This document shows, piece by piece, positions 1-51,860 of a stretch of DNA of 64,000 bases; positions within the stretch are counted from its first letter, which is position 1; each line of letters opens with the position of its first letter. The stretch comes from Croceitalea dokdonensis DOKDO 023 (GTDB lineage Bacteria; Bacteroidota; Bacteroidia; Flavobacteriales; Flavobacteriaceae), in the NCBI RefSeq assembly GCF_001306415.1, contig NZ_LDJX01000001.1, forward strand, positions 682,001-746,000, read 5' to 3'. The notes beneath the pieces were generated by a model. That model ran no database searches. It saw only the letters and a program-made list of their open reading frames with translations, and was not told the DNA's origin. The position numbers were made by a program, and so were the translations under genes.

Positions 1-16
1 TAGTTTGGTTTAAGGA

Positions 17-556
17 CTATCCTTTTAGAAATTCACCAATTTCACCAAGGCCCTCCCCGTCAAAGTCAGATTGTTGTAGGGCCTGGATAAGCTGGACAAT
101 ATGGGCCGGGTTCATATCCCTGCCTAGGACTCGTATCAATGCAAAACCCTTGTCATCACTATCCCCATAAATAATTACCTCGTCTATGGCATTGTCCTCA
201 CCCAGGTATTTTATTACTCCTTTACCATATTGGGTGTTAATCTTCATGAGTTCCACAAAGTCATCATCACGCAGTATTTGCTTTACCTTAGCGCGTTCCA
301 AGGTATACTCCTCTTTGTTGGCATCCGTCATTTTAAATGCCAAAAGATTAAATTTTCTTAACGATTCCAACGCTTCCTGCTGGGTAGCGTTAAGCTGGTT
401 GCTTTCAATTTTTAAAATACTGGCAGGAACATCGAGTGAAATAAAGTTAGAATTCTCTTTGTTGTCGATATAATACTCCTGTAAACTCTGCTGTGAGGCA
501 CAAGCTCCTAAACACAGGAGTACGGTGAGGAGCACAATTTTTATACTATTCTTCAT
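17..556 (-). CDS. DUF4252 family lipoprotein
   Basis: A 179-residue protein with a lipoprotein signal peptide: the N-terminus is basic and hydrophobic and ends in the lipobox LGAC (Cys at about residue 19), so it is probably anchored in the outer or inner membrane. The rest matches the DUF4252 pattern also seen in the next two genes: an amphipathic block, a basic stretch near ERAKVKQIL, then a segment with Y-G-x-G and a C-terminal helix. DUF4252 proteins occur in Bacteroidota and have no known biochemical function. It is the last gene of the sigma-factor operon running from 2805, separated from its paralogue by about 125 bases. Family assignment is fairly sure; function unknown. Confidence 0.8.
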   Translation of the reverse strand: MKNSIKIVLLTVLLCLGACASQQSLQEYYIDNKENSNFISLDVPASILKIESNQLNATQQEALESLRKFNLLAFKMTDANKEEYTLERAKVKQILRDDDFVELMKINTQYGKGVIKYLGEDNAIDEVIIYGDSDDKGFALIRVLGRDMNPAHIVQLIQALQQSDFDGEGLGEIGEFLKG

Positions 557-681
557 GGTTTGTTGCTATTTTTTGTTTGTTGCATAGGTAGGCGGTTTAG
601 CATACATGTTACATGAATTACCACAATAAAGATTGTTGTAAAAACGATAACTAAGTATAAAGTGACCTATTTTGCCACTTA

Positions 682-1227
682 TTATTTGCCTTTTTCTATT
701 TGATTCAACTCTTTGGGAAGGTTCATTTTGTTCACCAAGGAACCTACTTTGTCCAATTCTATATTTCCCGTCATGGTTAGCAGTACGGTCTCAATAGAAC
801 TATCGTTACCATCATTATCTTTTTTGTCAATTCCGGTAACGAACATCAACAATTCTTTTACCCTATTGGCGTTTCTACCTGTTTTAACGTAAAAACGAAC
901 ATTGGTTTCACCGTCCCTAACCCGCATTAACTCTTCTAGGTTTTTCTGACGTACGTATTTTTTCATGGTCAAGGCCATATCCGCGGAAGCATTACCATTT
1001 TCTGATATAAATACCTTTATGCCATCTATGTGCTTCACCATCTCCAAAAACTCCTTGGTTTCCGCATCTTGGTCATCTGAGGACATATTGGCCACCAGTT
1101 CCAACAACCCCTTGTTAATGCTCAACGAAGCTACGTTTTCACTGTTTTCATACTTGTCAAACACGGTTTGGGAATACCCTGTGTAAGACAATAAGCTAAT
1201 GGATAAGATTACAAATACTCTTCTCAT
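682..1227 (-). CDS. DUF4252 domain-containing secreted protein
   Basis: A 181-residue protein with a cleavable signal peptide (hydrophobic core ISLLSYTGYSQ) and no lipobox, so it should be periplasmic. The mature part begins with TVFDKYENSENVAS, closely matching the start of the next paralogue (SLFDKYEELDDVTA), and ends with the shared G-N-I-E-L-D-K block. It is the middle of three tandem DUF4252 paralogues in the sigma operon. The leader just before the ATG is A-rich with no Shine-Dalgarno site, as usual in this phylum. Function unknown. Confidence 0.8.
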   Translation of the reverse strand: MRRVFVILSISLLSYTGYSQTVFDKYENSENVASLSINKGLLELVANMSSDDQDAETKEFLEMVKHIDGIKVFISENGNASADMALTMKKYVRQKNLEELMRVRDGETNVRFYVKTGRNANRVKELLMFVTGIDKKDNDGNDSSIETVLLTMTGNIELDKVGSLVNKMNLPKELNQIEKGK

Positions 1228-1309
1228 GATTTTTGTTTTTTGATTGTTTTTGATTGATAAAATTGGTTGCCAGCCGGTTATTGGAGCAACAACCGGCCAC
1301 CTTACCTTA

Positions 1310-1849
1310 CTATTGTTTTTTGCCGGCCTCGTTCAAGGCTTCGGGCAAGTTCATTTTTTTTGTCAGTGAATTAATTTTGTTGAGGTCAATATCCCCGGTC
1401 AGGGACAGTAAGACGGTTTCAAACTTTCTACCATCGGCCTCTACCTCCTTTAAGCCAGTGATAAACATCAATAACTCACTAACATGGTCATCATCTTTAC
1501 CTTCTTTGATATAGAACTTAACATTGGCATCTTTGTCCTTGATGCGCATTAATTCCGTTAGGGAGGATTTTTTAAGGTACCCGCTTACGGAAGACTTCAT
1601 TTCTGCACCAATACGCTCATTATCCGTGGTAAAGACTTTTAAACTTTTTAAACTTGTGGCGATATCCACAAAGTCTTGGGCCTCTGGATCATCTACTTCA
1701 ACATCTATTTTGGCCAACAGCCTAAACATACTCTCATTTACCACAATGGCGGTAACATCATCCAATTCCTCATATTTATCGAACAAGGATTGTGAAAAGC
1801 CCAATAAGGGGGCAACGGTCATAACTAGGATTACAATATTCTTTCTCAT
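1310..1849 (-). CDS. DUF4252 domain-containing secreted protein
   Basis: A 179-residue secreted protein: signal peptide MRKNIVILVMTVAPLLGFSQ, then a DUF4252 domain. I place the start at 1849 because it gives a compact signal peptide; an in-frame ATG six codons upstream (1867) would overlap the end of the preceding gene by 14 bases and cannot be excluded. It shares the terminal block G-D-I-D-L-N-K-I with its neighbour at 682-1227, indicating tandem duplication. It is the first of the three DUF4252 genes and the one most tightly linked to the sigma-factor pair. Confidence 0.78.
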   Translation of the reverse strand: MRKNIVILVMTVAPLLGFSQSLFDKYEELDDVTAIVVNESMFRLLAKIDVEVDDPEAQDFVDIATSLKSLKVFTTDNERIGAEMKSSVSGYLKKSSLTELMRIKDKDANVKFYIKEGKDDDHVSELLMFITGLKEVEADGRKFETVLLSLTGDIDLNKINSLTKKMNLPEALNEAGKKQ

Positions 1850-1853
1850 TTTT

Positions 1854-2309
1854 TTACTGATTTTCATTATTTAGAACTTTTTGTTTGGCCACTTCAAATT
1901 CTTGCAAATAGGCAATTTTTTCGGTGCCCTTTGCAAAGTTGGCCGCAATAAGGCTTAAGGCCTCTTTTGTTTGTTCATAGGCCAAACGCGCCTGTTTTTG
2001 CTCTTGGTAGTTGTTATAGGTGTCCGTACCAAAATACACCCCAAAGGACAGTACCACCGCAGCTGCTACGGAGACCCATCTGAAATTTAGCTTTCGTCTA
2101 GGTTTTATGGGTTCCGATCGTAAGTTGCCCTGTTCATACTGAACGGTTTTGGCTTGTTTAAAATAGTTGAACATGGGTCTGTATTGCTCCAGATGTGCCG
2201 CAACGGCATCTTGCTCAAAATACATGCGCAACTTTTTCTCTTCTGCTACCGTGGTGGTAGCTTCAAAATATTTTTCTAATAGCTCTTCTATATTGTTATG
2301 CGATTCCAT
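1854..2309 (-). CDS. small membrane protein, candidate anti-sigma factor
   Basis: A 151-residue protein with a soluble N-terminal half (MESHNNIEELLEKYFEATTTVAEE), one transmembrane segment at about residues 78-96 (WVSVAAAVVLSFGVYFG) and a C-terminal helical tail rich in charged residues. Its start overlaps the end of the ECF sigma gene by 14 bases, implying translational coupling. Gene order, size and single-pass topology with the N-terminus inside fit an anti-sigma factor or regulator of the adjacent sigma factor. The opening residues resemble those of other small Bacteroidota proteins that follow ECF sigma genes. No zinc-binding HxxxCxxC motif is present, so it is not a classical ZAS protein. 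Role is inferred from context. Confidence 0.6.
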   Translation of the reverse strand: MESHNNIEELLEKYFEATTTVAEEKKLRMYFEQDAVAAHLEQYRPMFNYFKQAKTVQYEQGNLRSEPIKPRRKLNFRWVSVAAAVVLSFGVYFGTDTYNNYQEQKQARLAYEQTKEALSLIAANFAKGTEKIAYLQEFEVAKQKVLNNENQ

Positions 2310-2805
2310 AGCGGTGTTTTTGCATTAATTTTTCCCTTACCGTTTTTCTTGCCCTTGATAACGTAACCCTTACGGCGGTTGGTTTCATATCTAATAGTTC
2401 ACAGATTTCGTCAAAATCATAATCCTCAACATCCCGTAATTGTAACACCATCTTTTGCTGTTCTGGCAGTTGGTCCATAATACGTTCTACCCAATTGACA
2501 CTATCTTTTGCCTCTAATTGCCTTTGCAAAGCGGTTTGTTCATCCTTATAGTTGCTATGTACCAATTTTAAATTACCGGCCTGTTTGGACTTTAACCGGT
2601 CCAAACAAAAATTCTTGGTCATGGTCATGGCAAACGCTTCAACGCTTTTATAGGTAGACATGCTTTCACTTTTGGACCAGAGCTTCAATAAAATTTCCTG
2701 GGTGGCATCCTCCGCCTCTTCTTTGGAAATCAATAGCCTTTTGGCCATTCGGTACAGCTTGTCCCTAAAAGGCATTACCAAGTTTAAAAACTCCTTCTGT
2801 TGCAT
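2296..2805 (-). CDS. ECF-type RNA polymerase sigma factor
   Basis: A 169-residue sigma-70 family ECF factor. Region 2 is at the N-terminus (YRMAKRLLISKEEAEDATQE, then AFAMTMTKNFCLDRLKSK, the usual -10 recognition helix) and region 4 at the C-terminus (LPEQQKMVLQLRDVEDYDFD followed by a helix-turn-helix with PTAVRVTLSRARKTVREK). I start it at the ATG at 2805 (MQQKEFLNLV); the open frame runs 16 codons further up but that part does not match the family. It heads the operon with a probable anti-sigma partner and three DUF4252 genes, and a candidate self-recognised promoter lies just upstream (2854-2879). Confidence 0.9.
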   Translation of the reverse strand: MQQKEFLNLVMPFRDKLYRMAKRLLISKEEAEDATQEILLKLWSKSESMSTYKSVEAFAMTMTKNFCLDRLKSKQAGNLKLVHSNYKDEQTALQRQLEAKDSVNWVERIMDQLPEQQKMVLQLRDVEDYDFDEICELLDMKPTAVRVTLSRARKTVREKLMQKHRYGIA

Positions 2806-2823
2806 TTTTGGTTGTTCGTTGTA

Positions 2824-2846
2824 TGTACATCCCAATGAGATGTACA
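2824..2846. repeat. perfect 8-bp inverted repeat in the sigma leader
   Basis: TGTACATC at 2824-2831 is mirrored by GATGTACA at 2839-2846 with a 7-base loop. It sits at or just after the predicted transcription start of the sigma operon, so it could be an operator or a 5'-terminal hairpin of the mRNA. Seen directly; role unknown. Confidence 0.5.
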
Positions 2847-2853
2847 CTAGCAT

Positions 2854-2879
2854 GACGATGTATGACGAATATTGTTACA
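2854..2879 (-). promoter_or_regulatory. candidate ECF-type autoregulated promoter
   Basis: On the minus strand, TGTAAC (2874-2879) is followed after exactly 16 bases by CGTC (2854-2857), with a second CGTC at 2864-2867. This layout is the classical ECF -35/-10 arrangement and differs from the housekeeping TTG/TAnnTTTG promoters elsewhere in the window. The expected transcription start lies near 2847, about 40 bases before the sigma start codon. Assignment to this sigma factor is inferred from position. Confidence 0.5.
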
Positions 2880-2978
2880 AAAATTATTAAATATTAATTG
2901 TTGTAAGTATTTTAGGGGTTTTGGTACTATAATTGTTAATAGAACAAGGGTATTAGAAAGAGTTTCTTAAAAAAAAAG

Positions 2979-4451
2979 ATGATGAAAAAGTTAATTTTTA
3001 CGCTGGTTGCGCTGAGTTTATTGATTTCATGTAACAAGGATGATGATAACGTCATAGACAACCCCAACCAAAATTTACCTGAAAATTCGCCCGAAGTTGC
3101 CAACTTCCCAGTTCAAAATTTTATGTGGCGTGCCATGAACCTATGGTATTTCTGGCAAGAATCAGTTCCTAACCTGGCAGATGATAGGTTTTCTACAAAT
3201 GCGGAGTATGCCACATTTTTAGCTTCTGCTGCGAGCCCCGCAGAATTCTACACAAGCTTACAATTTAATGAGGACCGTTTTAGTTTTGCTAATGAAGACT
3301 ACACCACATTAGTGAACAATCTTGTTGGCATTTCTAAAAGTAATGGATTGGAATTTGGATTGGTAAGATTTGGTGAAGGAGAAGACATTTTTGGTTTTGT
3401 TCGCTACATTGTCGCCGGTTCTGACGCCTCTACTAAAAACATTAAAAGAGGCGATATTTTCACCAGAGTAGATGGACAACAGTTAAACCTTGATAATTAT
3501 AGGAATCTGCTCTTTGGAGCAAATGATACGTATACCCTAGGGTTGGCAGAAATTGTAAACAATACCATAAACGATATTGAAACTGAAGTTAGCTTAACCA
3601 AAACGGAAGGTTTACAAGAAAATCCAGTACTGCTAAGTTCAGTATTGGAAGTCAACGGTGTTAAAATTGCCTATTTAATGTACAATGGTTTCAATAGGAA
3701 CTTTAATGATGAACTAAATGAAGCTTTCGCCGGTTTTAATGCCGAGGGAGCATCTGAACTTATAGTAGATTTAAGGTATAACCCTGGAGGTTCCGTTAAC
3801 ACCTCAAGGTTGTTGGCCAGCATGATTTATGGCCCCAATACCAATGACCTATACATTAGACAGCGCTATAACGATAAAATTCAAGAGCAGCTTTCTGCGG
3901 CCCAGGTAGAAGACTTCTTTGCCAATAACGTAGATGGAGATGCATTAAATTCAATGAACTTGAGCAAAGTTTATGTCATTACCACCAATAGTTCTGCTTC
4001 TGCCAGTGAATTATTGATCAATGGGTTAGATCCGTATATTGAAGTCATCCAAATTGGAGAAACTACCAGAGGTAAAAATGAATTCTCGATTACCATGGTC
4101 GATGATCCCGAAAATAGTTTTATCTATAGCGAATCCAGGGAAAACCAAATAAATCCTGAGAACAGCTGGGCTATCCAGCCCCTTATTGGCAGGAATGAAA
4201 ATGCCGCAGGTTTTTCCGATTATACATCGGGTCTTTTACCGGATGTATTTCTTGAAGAAGATATTACGAACCTTGGGGTTTTGGGAGATATCAATGAGCC
4301 GCTTCTGGCCAGGACGTTAGAACTGATTACGAGTTCCACGGGCAAGCGGAACTTTGAGGTGAAAATGCCTGCAAAATTGGTGAGCGAGTCCAAACTATTT
4401 ACTCCGGTTAAAGATAATATGTGGCTAGATAAGCCCCTATCGTTTAAGTGA
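2979..4451 (+). CDS. S41 family peptidase, lipoprotein
   Basis: A 490-residue lipoprotein (lipobox ISC, Cys at about 18, followed by an acidic KDDD stretch typical of surface-exposed Bacteroidota lipoproteins). An N-terminal helical region contains MWRAMNLWYFWQ, as in S41 tail-specific proteases. A PDZ-like segment follows (residues about 140-190, KRGDIFTRVDGQQL). The catalytic S41 domain holds DLRYNPGGSV, then SSASASELL with the likely nucleophile Ser, and GETTRGKNEF containing the catalytic Lys. It would cleave unfolded proteins at or outside the cell surface. It is transcribed alone, and a hairpin at 4485-4508 separates it from the convergent TonB receptor. The start could be the second ATG (2982). 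Confidence 0.88.
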   Translation: MMKKLIFTLVALSLLISCNKDDDNVIDNPNQNLPENSPEVANFPVQNFMWRAMNLWYFWQESVPNLADDRFSTNAEYATFLASAASPAEFYTSLQFNEDRFSFANEDYTTLVNNLVGISKSNGLEFGLVRFGEGEDIFGFVRYIVAGSDASTKNIKRGDIFTRVDGQQLNLDNYRNLLFGANDTYTLGLAEIVNNTINDIETEVSLTKTEGLQENPVLLSSVLEVNGVKIAYLMYNGFNRNFNDELNEAFAGFNAEGASELIVDLRYNPGGSVNTSRLLASMIYGPNTNDLYIRQRYNDKIQEQLSAAQVEDFFANNVDGDALNSMNLSKVYVITTNSSASASELLINGLDPYIEVIQIGETTRGKNEFSITMVDDPENSFIYSESRENQINPENSWAIQPLIGRNENAAGFSDYTSGLLPDVFLEEDITNLGVLGDINEPLLARTLELITSSTGKRNFEVKMPAKLVSESKLFTPVKDNMWLDKPLSFK

Positions 4452-4484
4452 TTCCTTTAAATAAAGAATCCCCATTTTAAAATA

Positions 4485-4508
4485 GAAAAGCGGCCAATGC
4501 CGCTTTTC
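4485..4508. terminator. bidirectional intrinsic terminator
   Basis: A perfect 10-bp stem (GAAAAGCGGC at 4485-4494, GCCGCTTTTC at 4499-4508) with a CAAT loop lies between the convergent peptidase and TonB receptor genes. A/T-rich arms flank it on both sides, so it can serve both directions. Confidence 0.8.
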
Positions 4509-4511
4509 CTT

Positions 4512-6386
4512 TTAAAGGCGCAAGTTCATCCCCAGCCGTACATTTCTCCCACGGGTGGTAAAGTTGCTTATTTCCAGATAATCTGCATTAAACAGGTTAT
4601 CTATGGCAAAAAACAACCCTACACGGTCTGTAACGTCGTGTTTTGCGTAACAATTGACCAGACCAAATGCAGACAGCTCAACCGGGGAAAAGGTAGCAAA
4701 ATCAATATCTGATCGGCTTGAAACATATTGGTAGGCCACGCTAAAAAAGCTGTCTTCATTTAAGGTATAGCCCATTTGGGCATTGATTTTACTTTGCGGT
4801 ATCCTTAAGGCCAAATCGCTATCACTACTGGTAAACGTATAGTTGGCAGTAAGTTTAAAATCGTCCAAAAAATTAGCCTGTAATTCAACCTCAATACCCT
4901 CAAAATTCAAGGTTTCGGTTAAATTTTGATATTGACTCTCAAAAGTGTCCGGGTTAATGGTCACAAAATCAATGCGTCCCTCCTCTGCCCTATTAAAATA
5001 CAACCCACTTATCCTAAACGCCTCTGATGGCCTGTACTCCACACCCGCTTCAATAGTGGTGTTTTCCTCTGGCCGCAAATCTGGATTTGGGCCAAAGGGA
5101 CCAAATAACTGCGACAGGTTGGGAGCAATAAAAGAGGTAGCATAAGAGCTCAAAAATTTTAAATATCCATTTTCTGTTGGTAAGGTAAAGGAAGGGTTTA
5201 GATTATAAATGACAGTGCTGCCATACTCGCTATGGTTATTTAAGCGGGCACCAGCGTTAAGGTTAAGTCCAAAATCGCTCACATAAACTACATTGGCGTA
5301 AGGGTCTACCGTGGTCATATTTTGGATTTCTGAGAATAAGGTAACATTCTCAATAAGGTTTAATCCTACAATGGTATACCAGCTGTTGTTAAACGTATAT
5401 TTATTAAATACATCAATGACCAGGGTCTCTGAATCAAAAGCTGACGGAAAGCTAGACTCAAAGCTTCTGGAAATCTGATTAAAAGCCATATTCAAATTGA
5501 TACTGCCCTTGTTGTGGGTATAGACGGAATTGAGACCAAAGCGTGTCTGTTCACTGTCAAACCTAAAATCGGCATCCTCAACGGGAAAACCGTTATCAAA
5601 GTCGGAATCCAACTTATTATAAAAGGCCGAAGCCGTCATTTTAAATTTCCTACTAAACTGGTATCCCAGTTTTAGATTGCCGTCCAAACGAGAAAAAGCA
5701 TCTTCCTCGCTACCAATGGCAGCGGAAAGGCCATTGGTAAACTGATGCCCAGCAGAGGCCAGTACCGTTAATTTGTCTTCTTTGGCCTGCAGGGTGACGG
5801 TATTGGAGAAATCTGAAAGATTGTAATTCTGGTCGTTTTGGGATTGGTTGGTTCCCATGCTAGAACTTAGCTGAAGGGAAATCCCCTCCTGCTCGGCAGA
5901 CTTGGTGGTAATGTTAATGACCGCCGTTGCGGCAGAATTGCCATAGAGCGTACTGGCGGCACCTTTTAAAATTTCGATACGCTCTATTTGATTGATATTG
6001 AGTAGCCTTAAGTCATACTCTGCGTTGACACTTGAAGGATCTAGCACCTGAATGCCATCAATAATGACCAAAACCTGCCTATTGTTACCGCCCCGCGCAA
6101 AAACCGTCTGGTTCTGCCCTGCAAAACTCCGTGTACCGTTGACCTCAATACCGCTCTTGGTATTGATAACTTCTGCAACCGTCCTTCCTTGGTTTGCTGC
6201 CAGTTCCTCTGCACTAATGGTAATGACCGTTTTACCGCTGTTTTCCCTCTTAAGGGCAAAACGGGAATCGCTTACCACAACTTCATCAAGTTGCCTAACC
6301 ATCGTGCTGTCTTTTGCTTGTTGTTGCGCACCCAATACCGCACAAGAACAGGTAGCGGCCCATAGGCCAAATCGTAATTTGTTCAT
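4512..6386 (-). CDS. btuB: TonB-dependent outer membrane receptor, BtuB-like (cobalamin)
   Basis: A 624-residue outer membrane receptor. The signal peptide is MNKLRFGLWAATCSCAVLGA, and I start at that Met (6386) rather than the upstream in-frame ATG. A plug domain follows (residues about 40-160: LDEVVVSDSRF as a TonB-box-like stretch, VAEVINTKSGIEVNG, ILKGAASTLYGNSAATAVINI). The remainder is a beta barrel with repeated aromatic-alternating strands, ending in NVRLGMNLRL. Its length is near that of BtuB, shorter than SusC types. The cobalamin riboswitch directly upstream and the divergent B12-type ABC transporter support corrinoid import. Exact ligand preference is not visible in the sequence. 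Confidence 0.9.
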   Translation of the reverse strand: MNKLRFGLWAATCSCAVLGAQQQAKDSTMVRQLDEVVVSDSRFALKRENSGKTVITISAEELAANQGRTVAEVINTKSGIEVNGTRSFAGQNQTVFARGGNNRQVLVIIDGIQVLDPSSVNAEYDLRLLNINQIERIEILKGAASTLYGNSAATAVINITTKSAEQEGISLQLSSSMGTNQSQNDQNYNLSDFSNTVTLQAKEDKLTVLASAGHQFTNGLSAAIGSEEDAFSRLDGNLKLGYQFSRKFKMTASAFYNKLDSDFDNGFPVEDADFRFDSEQTRFGLNSVYTHNKGSINLNMAFNQISRSFESSFPSAFDSETLVIDVFNKYTFNNSWYTIVGLNLIENVTLFSEIQNMTTVDPYANVVYVSDFGLNLNAGARLNNHSEYGSTVIYNLNPSFTLPTENGYLKFLSSYATSFIAPNLSQLFGPFGPNPDLRPEENTTIEAGVEYRPSEAFRISGLYFNRAEEGRIDFVTINPDTFESQYQNLTETLNFEGIEVELQANFLDDFKLTANYTFTSSDSDLALRIPQSKINAQMGYTLNEDSFFSVAYQYVSSRSDIDFATFSPVELSAFGLVNCYAKHDVTDRVGLFFAIDNLFNADYLEISNFTTRGRNVRLGMNLRL

Positions 6387-6470
6387 GAATACATTGTTTC
6401 CTCGGAAAAATCCATAGGCTTCCCTATGTAAACTTTTATCCCGAAAGTTTAACATTTATTGTTTGAACCT

Positions 6471-50837: not shown

Positions 50838-51698
50838 TCAGTGCCTGTTTTTATCAATAATTAAATCTTCTATTTTTTTAAAATCCTTTGAATTTGGTAC
50901 GTGTTTAGCATCTTCAATCAAAACAACTTCTTCTATAGAAGAAAATATTCGTTTTGCTCTTTTAATCATTTTTTTTCCGGGAAACATGATATCCTTTTCA
51001 CAGGCAAAAATGGTAATCGGTGTTTTTATTCTATTTGCATCATTTTTAGATAGTATTGGTAAAGGAGAAAAATCCATATTGCAGTGTTGAAACGTAGAAG
51101 ACATAAACTCTAATGCAAAATCATCGTATTCAGAAAAAAGTACGTTCATTACCTTTTTAATGTGCTTTTGATTGTTAGTTTTTATAAACTTTTTTAATGG
51201 TAGGAACATTTTAAACAAACCTACAAGAGGATTACCATTAACAATATAGACTGGTGCAATTAAGAATACCTGTTTTATAGTCGTTTCATTAAACACTAGT
51301 GCTTTTAAGCTAATGAAACCTCCAAAGGAAAAGCCTACCAGGGTCACGTCTTTCAGTCTTAGTTTTATGATTACTTCAATAAGCCATTTTCCATAATCTA
51401 AAGATTTCATGTCTAATCGATTCTCTGCACTTTTATTGGGTTGTGCTAACACATCTACTGCATAGACACAATATTTTGAAGCTAGATTGGGGAAAGAATC
51501 TAAAATTTGTGGTGCACAACCTCCTGTGCCGTGAATCAGTACTAATGGAGGGTTTTTAGTGTCGCCAGTAATGATAACATTAGTGACTCCAAACTTTGTT
51601 TCTATAAATTTTTCTGAATATTCAATATTCAGCTCATTCAACTTTTGATTGTAAAGGGATAAGATTTTTTCTTTTCCTTCTTTTGATTTGAAAAACAT
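50838..51698 (-). CDS. alpha/beta hydrolase
   Basis: A 286-residue alpha/beta hydrolase: LVLIHGTGGCAPQ near residue 52 and nucleophile elbow LVGFSFGGFISL (Ser) near 117, with C-terminal FACEKDIMFP and DAKHVPN holding the Asp and His. No signal peptide. It is immediately followed by the epoxide hydrolase-like gene. Its first codons and leader are duplicated at 53493-53546, and a 20-bp direct repeat array lies upstream (51861-51940). Confidence 0.88.
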   Translation of the reverse strand: MFFKSKEGKEKILSLYNQKLNELNIEYSEKFIETKFGVTNVIITGDTKNPPLVLIHGTGGCAPQILDSFPNLASKYCVYAVDVLAQPNKSAENRLDMKSLDYGKWLIEVIIKLRLKDVTLVGFSFGGFISLKALVFNETTIKQVFLIAPVYIVNGNPLVGLFKMFLPLKKFIKTNNQKHIKKVMNVLFSEYDDFALEFMSSTFQHCNMDFSPLPILSKNDANRIKTPITIFACEKDIMFPGKKMIKRAKRIFSSIEEVVLIEDAKHVPNSKDFKKIEDLIIDKNRH

Positions 51699-51717: not shown

Positions 51718-51860
51718 TGATGATTATGATTGATGATTATGATTGATGTATTTTGAATGTTATGACGAGCGATGATAGGTATTTGTTACACTTTAATTTT
51801 TATTATTAATAGCTCAATTTTTGTTTCTACAAATATCTATCAAGAAGCAATATGCTTCTA

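Follow-up and report, generated by a model that had tools for sequence, protein, structure and literature searches.

The stretch of DNA analysed here (the window) comprises 64,000 nucleotides (nt) of Croceitalea dokdonensis DOKDO 023 (contig NZ_LDJX01000001.1, positions 682,001 to 746,000), a member of the Flavobacteriaceae whose genome measures 3.88 Mb in 16 contigs. Five co-directional genes occupy the minus strand at 17-2805. The first encodes an extracytoplasmic function (ECF) sigma factor and the second a small membrane protein with one helix; the remaining three are DUF4252 genes. A previous examination of the letters and open reading frames (ORFs), referred to below as the sequence-only reading, had described this arrangement as an ECF sigma operon with three DUF4252 genes, and all its elements were recovered at or near the positions first proposed. 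The features are as follows:

2854-2879, minus strand: ECF-type promoter of the sigma operon, TGTAAC-N16-CGTC, conserved ahead of the sigma orthologues
2824-2846, minus strand: perfect inverted repeat, a predicted RNA hairpin of the 5' leader (fold z -4.2; arms co-vary among relatives)
2296-2805, minus strand: ECF sigma factor of the GFO_1088/PG0214 family, 169 amino acids (aa), with sigma-70 regions 2 and 4 (NF058625)
1854-2309, minus strand: membrane protein of 151 aa, probable anti-sigma factor (position, 14-nt overlap with the end of the sigma gene, one long hydrophobic helix)
1310-1867, minus strand (alternative start at 1849 possible): secreted DUF4252 protein (PF14060, 105.5 bits; NF058626, 237.1 bits)
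682-1227, minus strand: secreted DUF4252 protein (PF14060, 93.1 bits; NF058626, 200.9 bits)
17-556, minus strand: DUF4252 lipoprotein (PF14060, 79.5 bits; NF058619, 225.6 bits)
2979-4451, plus strand: S41 peptidase of the GFO_1087 family, divergent neighbour (NF058627, 613.6 bits, cut-off 455)

The sigma factor scored 235.3 bits against NF058625, the NCBIfam model of the GFO_1088/PG0214 family (cut-off 130), covering positions 1-169 of 170, and carried the Pfam domains Sigma70_r2 (52.0 bits) and Sigma70_r4_2 (58.4 bits). The longest ORF of its gene begins at 2853, immediately 3' of CGTC, and the start conserved among relatives (M-x-Q) lies at 2805. All three DUF4252 proteins exceeded the curated Pfam cut-off of PF14060 (23.9 bits), and both NF058626 matches as well as the NF058619 match were above their NCBIfam cut-offs, in line with the proposal of one lipoprotein and two secreted proteins; the product of 17-556 bears an LGAC lipobox, which we take to mark it as the lipoprotein.

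The sigma and membrane protein genes were adjacent in 80 of 80 named loci, with a DUF4252 gene downstream in 79; 77 included a copy for a DUF4252 lipoprotein, and in 79 the S41 gene lay divergently beside the sigma gene. Three or more DUF4252 copies were present in 41 of these loci and two in 36. In every named locus the membrane-protein ORF begins 14-29 nt before the end of the sigma gene (14 nt in the window), as coupled translation would predict, and the prediction that the sigma operon is one compact transcription unit is supported at this level. Among 247 genomes of the phylum, DUF4252 was detected in 76 and a sigma factor above the cut-off in 50; DUF4252 occurred somewhere in 46 of these 50 genomes and lay 900-1420 nt downstream, on the same strand, of 45 of the 55 sigma matches above the cut-off, a co-location count that used 78 DUF4252 matches (the best per genome and a few second ones) and not the full table. 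The fourth DUF4252 gene of the C. dokdonensis genome (L004, 1414-1935) follows an RluA-like gene (assigned by eye) in a locus with no sigma gene; it lies apart from the sigma operon and was rejected as a member.

Directly upstream of the sigma gene, TGTAAC-N16-CGTC had been put forward as an ECF-type promoter, and in three sets of loci the 200 nt before the orthologous sigma gene were searched for TGTAAC-N15-17-CGTC. The motif was found in all 80 named loci, every one with a spacer of 16; in 19 of 25 relatives whose sigma factor passed the family cut-off (a set that counts L023, the locus of the window itself, and leaves out L035, with its sigma factor below the cut-off); and in 16 of 28 loci that stem mostly from other families, orders and classes (one of them, L075, from the window's own family), where the spacer was 16 in nine cases and 17 in seven (L044, L053, L054, L076-L079, all outside the window's family). 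With shuffled upstream sequences, the mean was no more than 0.02 loci in any set. Because the sets partly overlap (L017/L080) and the 80 are closely related, these counts are not independent. Outside the three-set count, 12 further loci (L063-L074) had the site in 0 of 3 second paralogues (L063-L065) and in 8 of the 9 others (L066-L074). The bases between the -35 and -10 elements diverge among the loci with the promoter, and in several distant loci the motif starts 38 nt before the matched start, leaving a leader of about 12 nt after CGTC. An ECF-type promoter belonging to the operon itself is thus supported by conservation of sequence and placement, and, as it precedes the gene of a sigma factor, autoregulation of the operon is probable.

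ECF transcripts are expected to start about 8 nt after CGTC. The perfect inverted repeat, TGTACATC-N7-GATGTACA, starts 8 nt after CGTC and would therefore sit about where the transcript begins, near the predicted 5' end of the mRNA as the sequence-only reading had it. That reading gave the repeat no function; its behaviour here is that of an RNA hairpin, with a folding energy of -13.2 kcal/mol (z -4.2) that none of 200 shuffles reached. Across 104 leaders of at least 30 nt the mean z was -1.5, with 61% below -1. The 5' and 3' arms of leaders 38-60 nt long (87 distinct ones, drawn from L010-L034 and L080-L159) were then paired either with their own partner or with that of another species; swapped arms gave -3.6 kcal/mol on average and own arms -6.5 kcal/mol, a value lower than all 5000 permutations, and the 41 leaders below 65% identity gave -6.0 kcal/mol with own and -3.2 kcal/mol with swapped arms. 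The own 3' arm was strictly the best partner in only 12 of the 87 leaders (median rank 10), because many arms are alike. The repeat could also be an operator, bound as DNA by a repressor or an activator, as a perfect palindrome immediately downstream of a promoter and the TGTA start common to many leaders would suggest, but the arm sequences vary among relatives while the pairing is kept, and together with the stability of the window's own RNA fold this makes an operator unlikely. We take it that the hairpin is maintained by compensating changes within the sampled flavobacteria and is not a fixed operator; it would shield the 5' end of the transcript.

The membrane protein is probably an anti-sigma factor, given that it has the same place and an overlapping start in all named loci; it is small, sigma-linked and has one transmembrane helix, as membrane anti-sigma factors do. 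It had no Pfam match and reached no NCBIfam family cut-off, and a profile search of the PDB returned two weak matches (best E 0.88). In the AlphaFold model the N-terminal part forms helices at 3-15, 21-32 and 38-61, with good confidence as far as about residue 50, and the transmembrane stretch lies in a long helix at 77-126; the protein contains no cysteine and hence no zinc motif. FecI/FecR-type surface signalling for a TonB-dependent receptor is very improbable: a TonB-dependent-receptor-like ORF does lie nearby, past the S41 gene (4512-6455, minus strand; assigned by eye, with no family search), but no FecR domain was matched by Pfam in the membrane protein at E ≤ 1, and the conserved neighbours of the sigma pair are the DUF4252 and S41 genes.

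A second target was sought among the exact motif sites of the genome, of which there are five. One of them lies 31 nt upstream of an ATP-binding cassette (ABC) ATPase gene (L007), which is followed by an ABC-2 permease gene and then by a gene for a protein with a type IX secretion system (T9SS) type B sorting domain. The best NCBIfam match of the ATPase was the lantibiotic-protection model TIGR03740 at 231.8 bits, below the cut-off of 309.75 and so a resemblance only. All eight genomes of the genus had the site at the ABC operon, and seven of the eight had it at the sigma operon, the remaining genome being 54% complete. An orthologue of the ATPase gene was present in 28 of 39 relatives, with the strict motif within 160 nt upstream in 19 of the 28 (22 under relaxed rules; shuffles, 0.004); L199 was scored as a miss (contig end, wrong start), the site of the same gene being present in L167. 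In 97 genomes of the window's family, counted by hand, sigma factor and ABC gene occurred together in 89, the sigma factor only in two, the ABC gene only in one and neither in five (Fisher 1.9e-6, or 2.2e-5 without G191, where the DUF4252 gene lies at a contig edge), P values that are overstated since the sampled genomes are related. ABC upstream regions were then taken from 40 of the 162 genomes with a match to the ABC gene. Nineteen further sigma-bearing members of the family had the strict motif at the ABC gene in 12 cases, and in the remaining seven (by eye) six had [AC]GTAAC-N16-CGTC and one a motif ending in CGTT; in G442, the sole sigma-less member of the family with the ABC gene, AGTC replaces CGTC. 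From these patterns of sequence conservation, the LanF/BcrA-like ABC operon is a likely second target of the sigma factor in the window's family.

The motif also stands 45 nt before the gene of a small secreted protein of 111 aa that is encoded beside the ABC operon and matches no family (L194, 8690-9025, minus strand), and in four genomes of the genus this site and that of the ABC operon face each other about 7 kb apart. The protein was rejected as a target, with the strict motif at only 5 of 24 homologues (12 of 24 under relaxed rules).

We read the locus, with a probability of about 0.7, as an autoregulated envelope-stress ECF sigma/anti-sigma operon whose output includes secreted DUF4252 proteins. 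In the mechanism that we propose, the membrane protein would tether the sigma factor at the inner membrane until an envelope signal releases it; the freed sigma factor would guide RNA polymerase to TGTAAC-N16-CGTC and so amplify its own operon, the output being the sigma factor, the anti-sigma factor (by its overlapping start) and the three DUF4252 proteins, two of them periplasmic and the third a lipoprotein. The transcript would probably begin with the protective hairpin, at or just past +1, and the same sigma factor would probably switch on the ABC transporter operon in the window's family. With this operon as a co-target, envelope or antimicrobial-peptide stress would be the likeliest signal. 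SigW and SigX of Bacillus subtilis are autoregulated ECF/anti-sigma pairs with a very similar promoter consensus; the system would work alike but is not of the same family, as the sigma factor scored 73.9 bits against the SigW model (cut-off 209). A more speculative picture, which we hold tentatively and at well under even odds, is that of a SigX/SigW counterpart of the Bacteroidota, in which one sigma factor with a fixed promoter would run, besides its own operon, a peptide-resistance-like ABC exporter, while the DUF4252 proteins would act as envelope effectors or feedback sensors, and the 5'-terminal hairpin, kept by compensating changes, would tune expression.

The layout of the operon is of an already known kind. 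NCBIfam families (NF058627, NF058625, NF058626, NF058619) are named after GFO_1087-GFO_1091 of Gramella forsetii, and the sigma, DUF4252, lipoprotein and S41 products of the window score above their curated cut-offs; these models give no promoter, leader or target, and none covers the membrane protein. Literature searches for 'GFO_1088' and for combined ECF-promoter terms returned no paper, and a search for 'THC0290_1774' returned solely PMC9723704. SigCH of Porphyromonas gingivalis was reportedly the subject of a study by Ota (2017). In the same species, PG_0214-0218 and PG_0985-0987 were jointly up 2.4- to 10.6-fold in RNA-seq of strain FLL361 (PMC10101095, in passages); like the window, these operons hold an ECF sigma gene, a putative anti-sigma gene and DUF4252 genes, and PG_0215, positioned like the window's membrane protein, is termed a putative anti-sigma factor there, whereas PG0217-0218 are annotated as hypothetical or beta-barrel, unlike the window (PMC10101095). 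The passages on the P. gingivalis operons contain no TGTAAC/CGTC-like promoter motif. In passages of the respective papers, PG0214, PG0217, PG0218 and PG0987 were down in a PG0720 mutant (PMC8757827), PG0985-87 were up 1.4-1.7 without iron (PMC10434189), a sigma gene and three DUF4252 genes of Prevotella bivia went down together (PMC11410844), and SigCH is said to regulate cdhR and hmuYR (PMC5607195); by elimination from the lists of PMC9862357 and the pairs of PMC5607195, as far as these passages go, PGN_0319 (SigCH) is probably PG0214. The literature covered also included passages of PMC13055991, PMC12596196, PMC9862357, PMC13227078 and PMC5378342. The joint changes of the Porphyromonas and Prevotella operons and the promoter shared with the ABC operon lend indirect support to the earlier suggestion of an envelope-stress or signalling module.

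For Flavobacterium psychrophilum SM6, passages of PMC9723704 describe mapped transcript starts with a CGT -10 box before the ECF/anti-sigma pair THC0290_1774/1773 and before the ABC ATPase gene THC0290_1050, from promoters that rise under low-nutrient conditions. If they are of the same families, this ECF pair and ABC ATPase would fit the prediction made for the window. The ECF regulons of Bacteroidota are poorly mapped: according to passages of a transcriptome map of B. thetaiotaomicron, no motif was known for any of its alternative ECF sigma factors (PMC7366714). What is new here is the widely kept promoter, the leader hairpin, the overlap of sigma and putative anti-sigma genes and the likely second target. 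With a promoter footprinted across many genera and a named second target, an operon of domains of unknown function becomes a directly testable regulon, and promoter and target give a first handle on DUF4252.

Several results weigh against the reading of the locus as an autoregulated envelope-stress operon. The sequence-only reading had advised a genome search for further TGTAAC-N16-CGTC promoters, and no numerical excess came of it: the exact motif had five sites as compared with eight for a reversed-pattern control, and eight genomes of the genus held it 41 times versus 31 for the reversed pattern, no clear excess. A single genome therefore does not carry the claim of a promoter, which is carried by placement upstream of orthologues, and targets were judged solely by orthologue conservation. 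The strict motif is absent from 6 of the 25 and 12 of the 28 sigma loci; of the 6, five have one-base variants of it (by eye). Some leaders (L018, L020) do not fold, and RNAalifold found no consensus pair in a MAFFT alignment of 48 of the 87 leaders, where the 3' arms are probably out of register, for which reason the arm-swap test was used. Likeness of the membrane protein model to MucA and RsiW, and with it a class I anti-sigma domain fold at the N terminus, is suggestive only, as these two appeared among the 20 Foldseek matches listed, but at E 4.9-9.8 and Z 2.5-2.8, under unrelated matches. In passages of the literature, the P. gingivalis homologues are tied to hemin, iron and oxidative stress (PMC10101095, PMC10434189, PMC5607195), a sigCH mutant had wild-type minimum inhibitory concentrations of ampicillin, tetracycline and ofloxacin (PMC5607195), so that a drug-stress role is not favoured in Porphyromonas, and the CGT-box set of F. 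psychrophilum includes T9SS genes (PMC9723704), which were not found as targets here. Finally, in the family f5 none of the 15 sigma-bearing and none of the 4 sigma-less genomes had the strict motif at the ABC gene, which confines the claimed ABC link to the window's family and a small number of others.

The ABC gene of f5 retains GTAAC with a different -10 element in 14 of the 15 sigma-bearing and 3 of the 4 sigma-less genomes (by eye), and another sigma factor may read its promoter there. Several cellular ECF sigma factors with overlapping regulons might likewise read the motif in general, the ABC operon being mainly the target of another one. We regard this as a real possibility, if less than an even bet: beside the f5 gene, which keeps its elements with or without the sigma factor, 18 matches to the sigma model were found in the genome at E ≤ 0.001, and multiple readers are proposed for the CGT-box motif in passages of PMC9723704; yet just one of the 18 exceeds the cut-off of the family, no other ECF gene follows any of the remaining four exact genome sites, and within the window's family the sigma factor and the ABC gene occur together.

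The DUF4252 proteins had been called paralogues of unknown function. Passages of the literature that mention DUF4252 state no function for it, but NCBIfam models already exist for the families and the operon, as do published homologues. A DUF4252 sequence alone had no match in the PDB at E ≤ 1, a profile search of the PDB gave four weak matches (best E 0.075), and the AlphaFold model (predicted local distance difference test score, 79.8) had only weak matches among those listed: DcrB at Z 6.2 (root-mean-square deviation 5.1, 117 aligned), EagT6 at 5.6 and SciW at 5.4, on a level with an unrelated synthetase at 5.8. Instead of effectors, these proteins could mainly be a sensing or feedback arm that binds the outer part of the membrane protein, which is conceivable, if doubtful: nearly every named locus has DUF4252 on the predicted transcript of the sigma pair, as would suit a feedback component, but DUF4252 genes also occur apart from the sigma gene (as in L004), and the proposed interaction with the membrane protein is purely putative.

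The window holds two matches to TGTAAC-N15-17-CGTC, as compared with 0.05 expected. The one outside the sigma operon, TGTAAC-N17-CGTC at 51764-51790 (minus strand), precedes an alpha/beta-hydrolase-like ORF (50838-51698; function assigned by eye) by about 65 nt. The other exact sites of the genome and of the genus stand inside coding frames or before genes for DUF4407, DUF4870, metallophosphoesterase and MacB/FtsX-like proteins; among these, one site precedes the gene of a DUF4407 membrane protein by 55 nt (L009, G000:C12:91415-91440), and in two genus-mates (L162, L170) a MacB/FtsX-like permease gene with an identical start follows 48 nt after the motif.

An Rfam search of window positions 1-4500 returned no match. 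The S41 gene is a conserved neighbour of the sigma operon by position, and a functional link is possible. In the gap between the sigma promoter and the S41 gene (2880-2978 in the window; the same gap in L080-L159) the block TGTAAGTA is recurrent: 29 of 78 loci have an exact copy at most 75 nt from the sigma -35 element, where shuffles predict 0.2. It is perhaps part of the S41 promoter.

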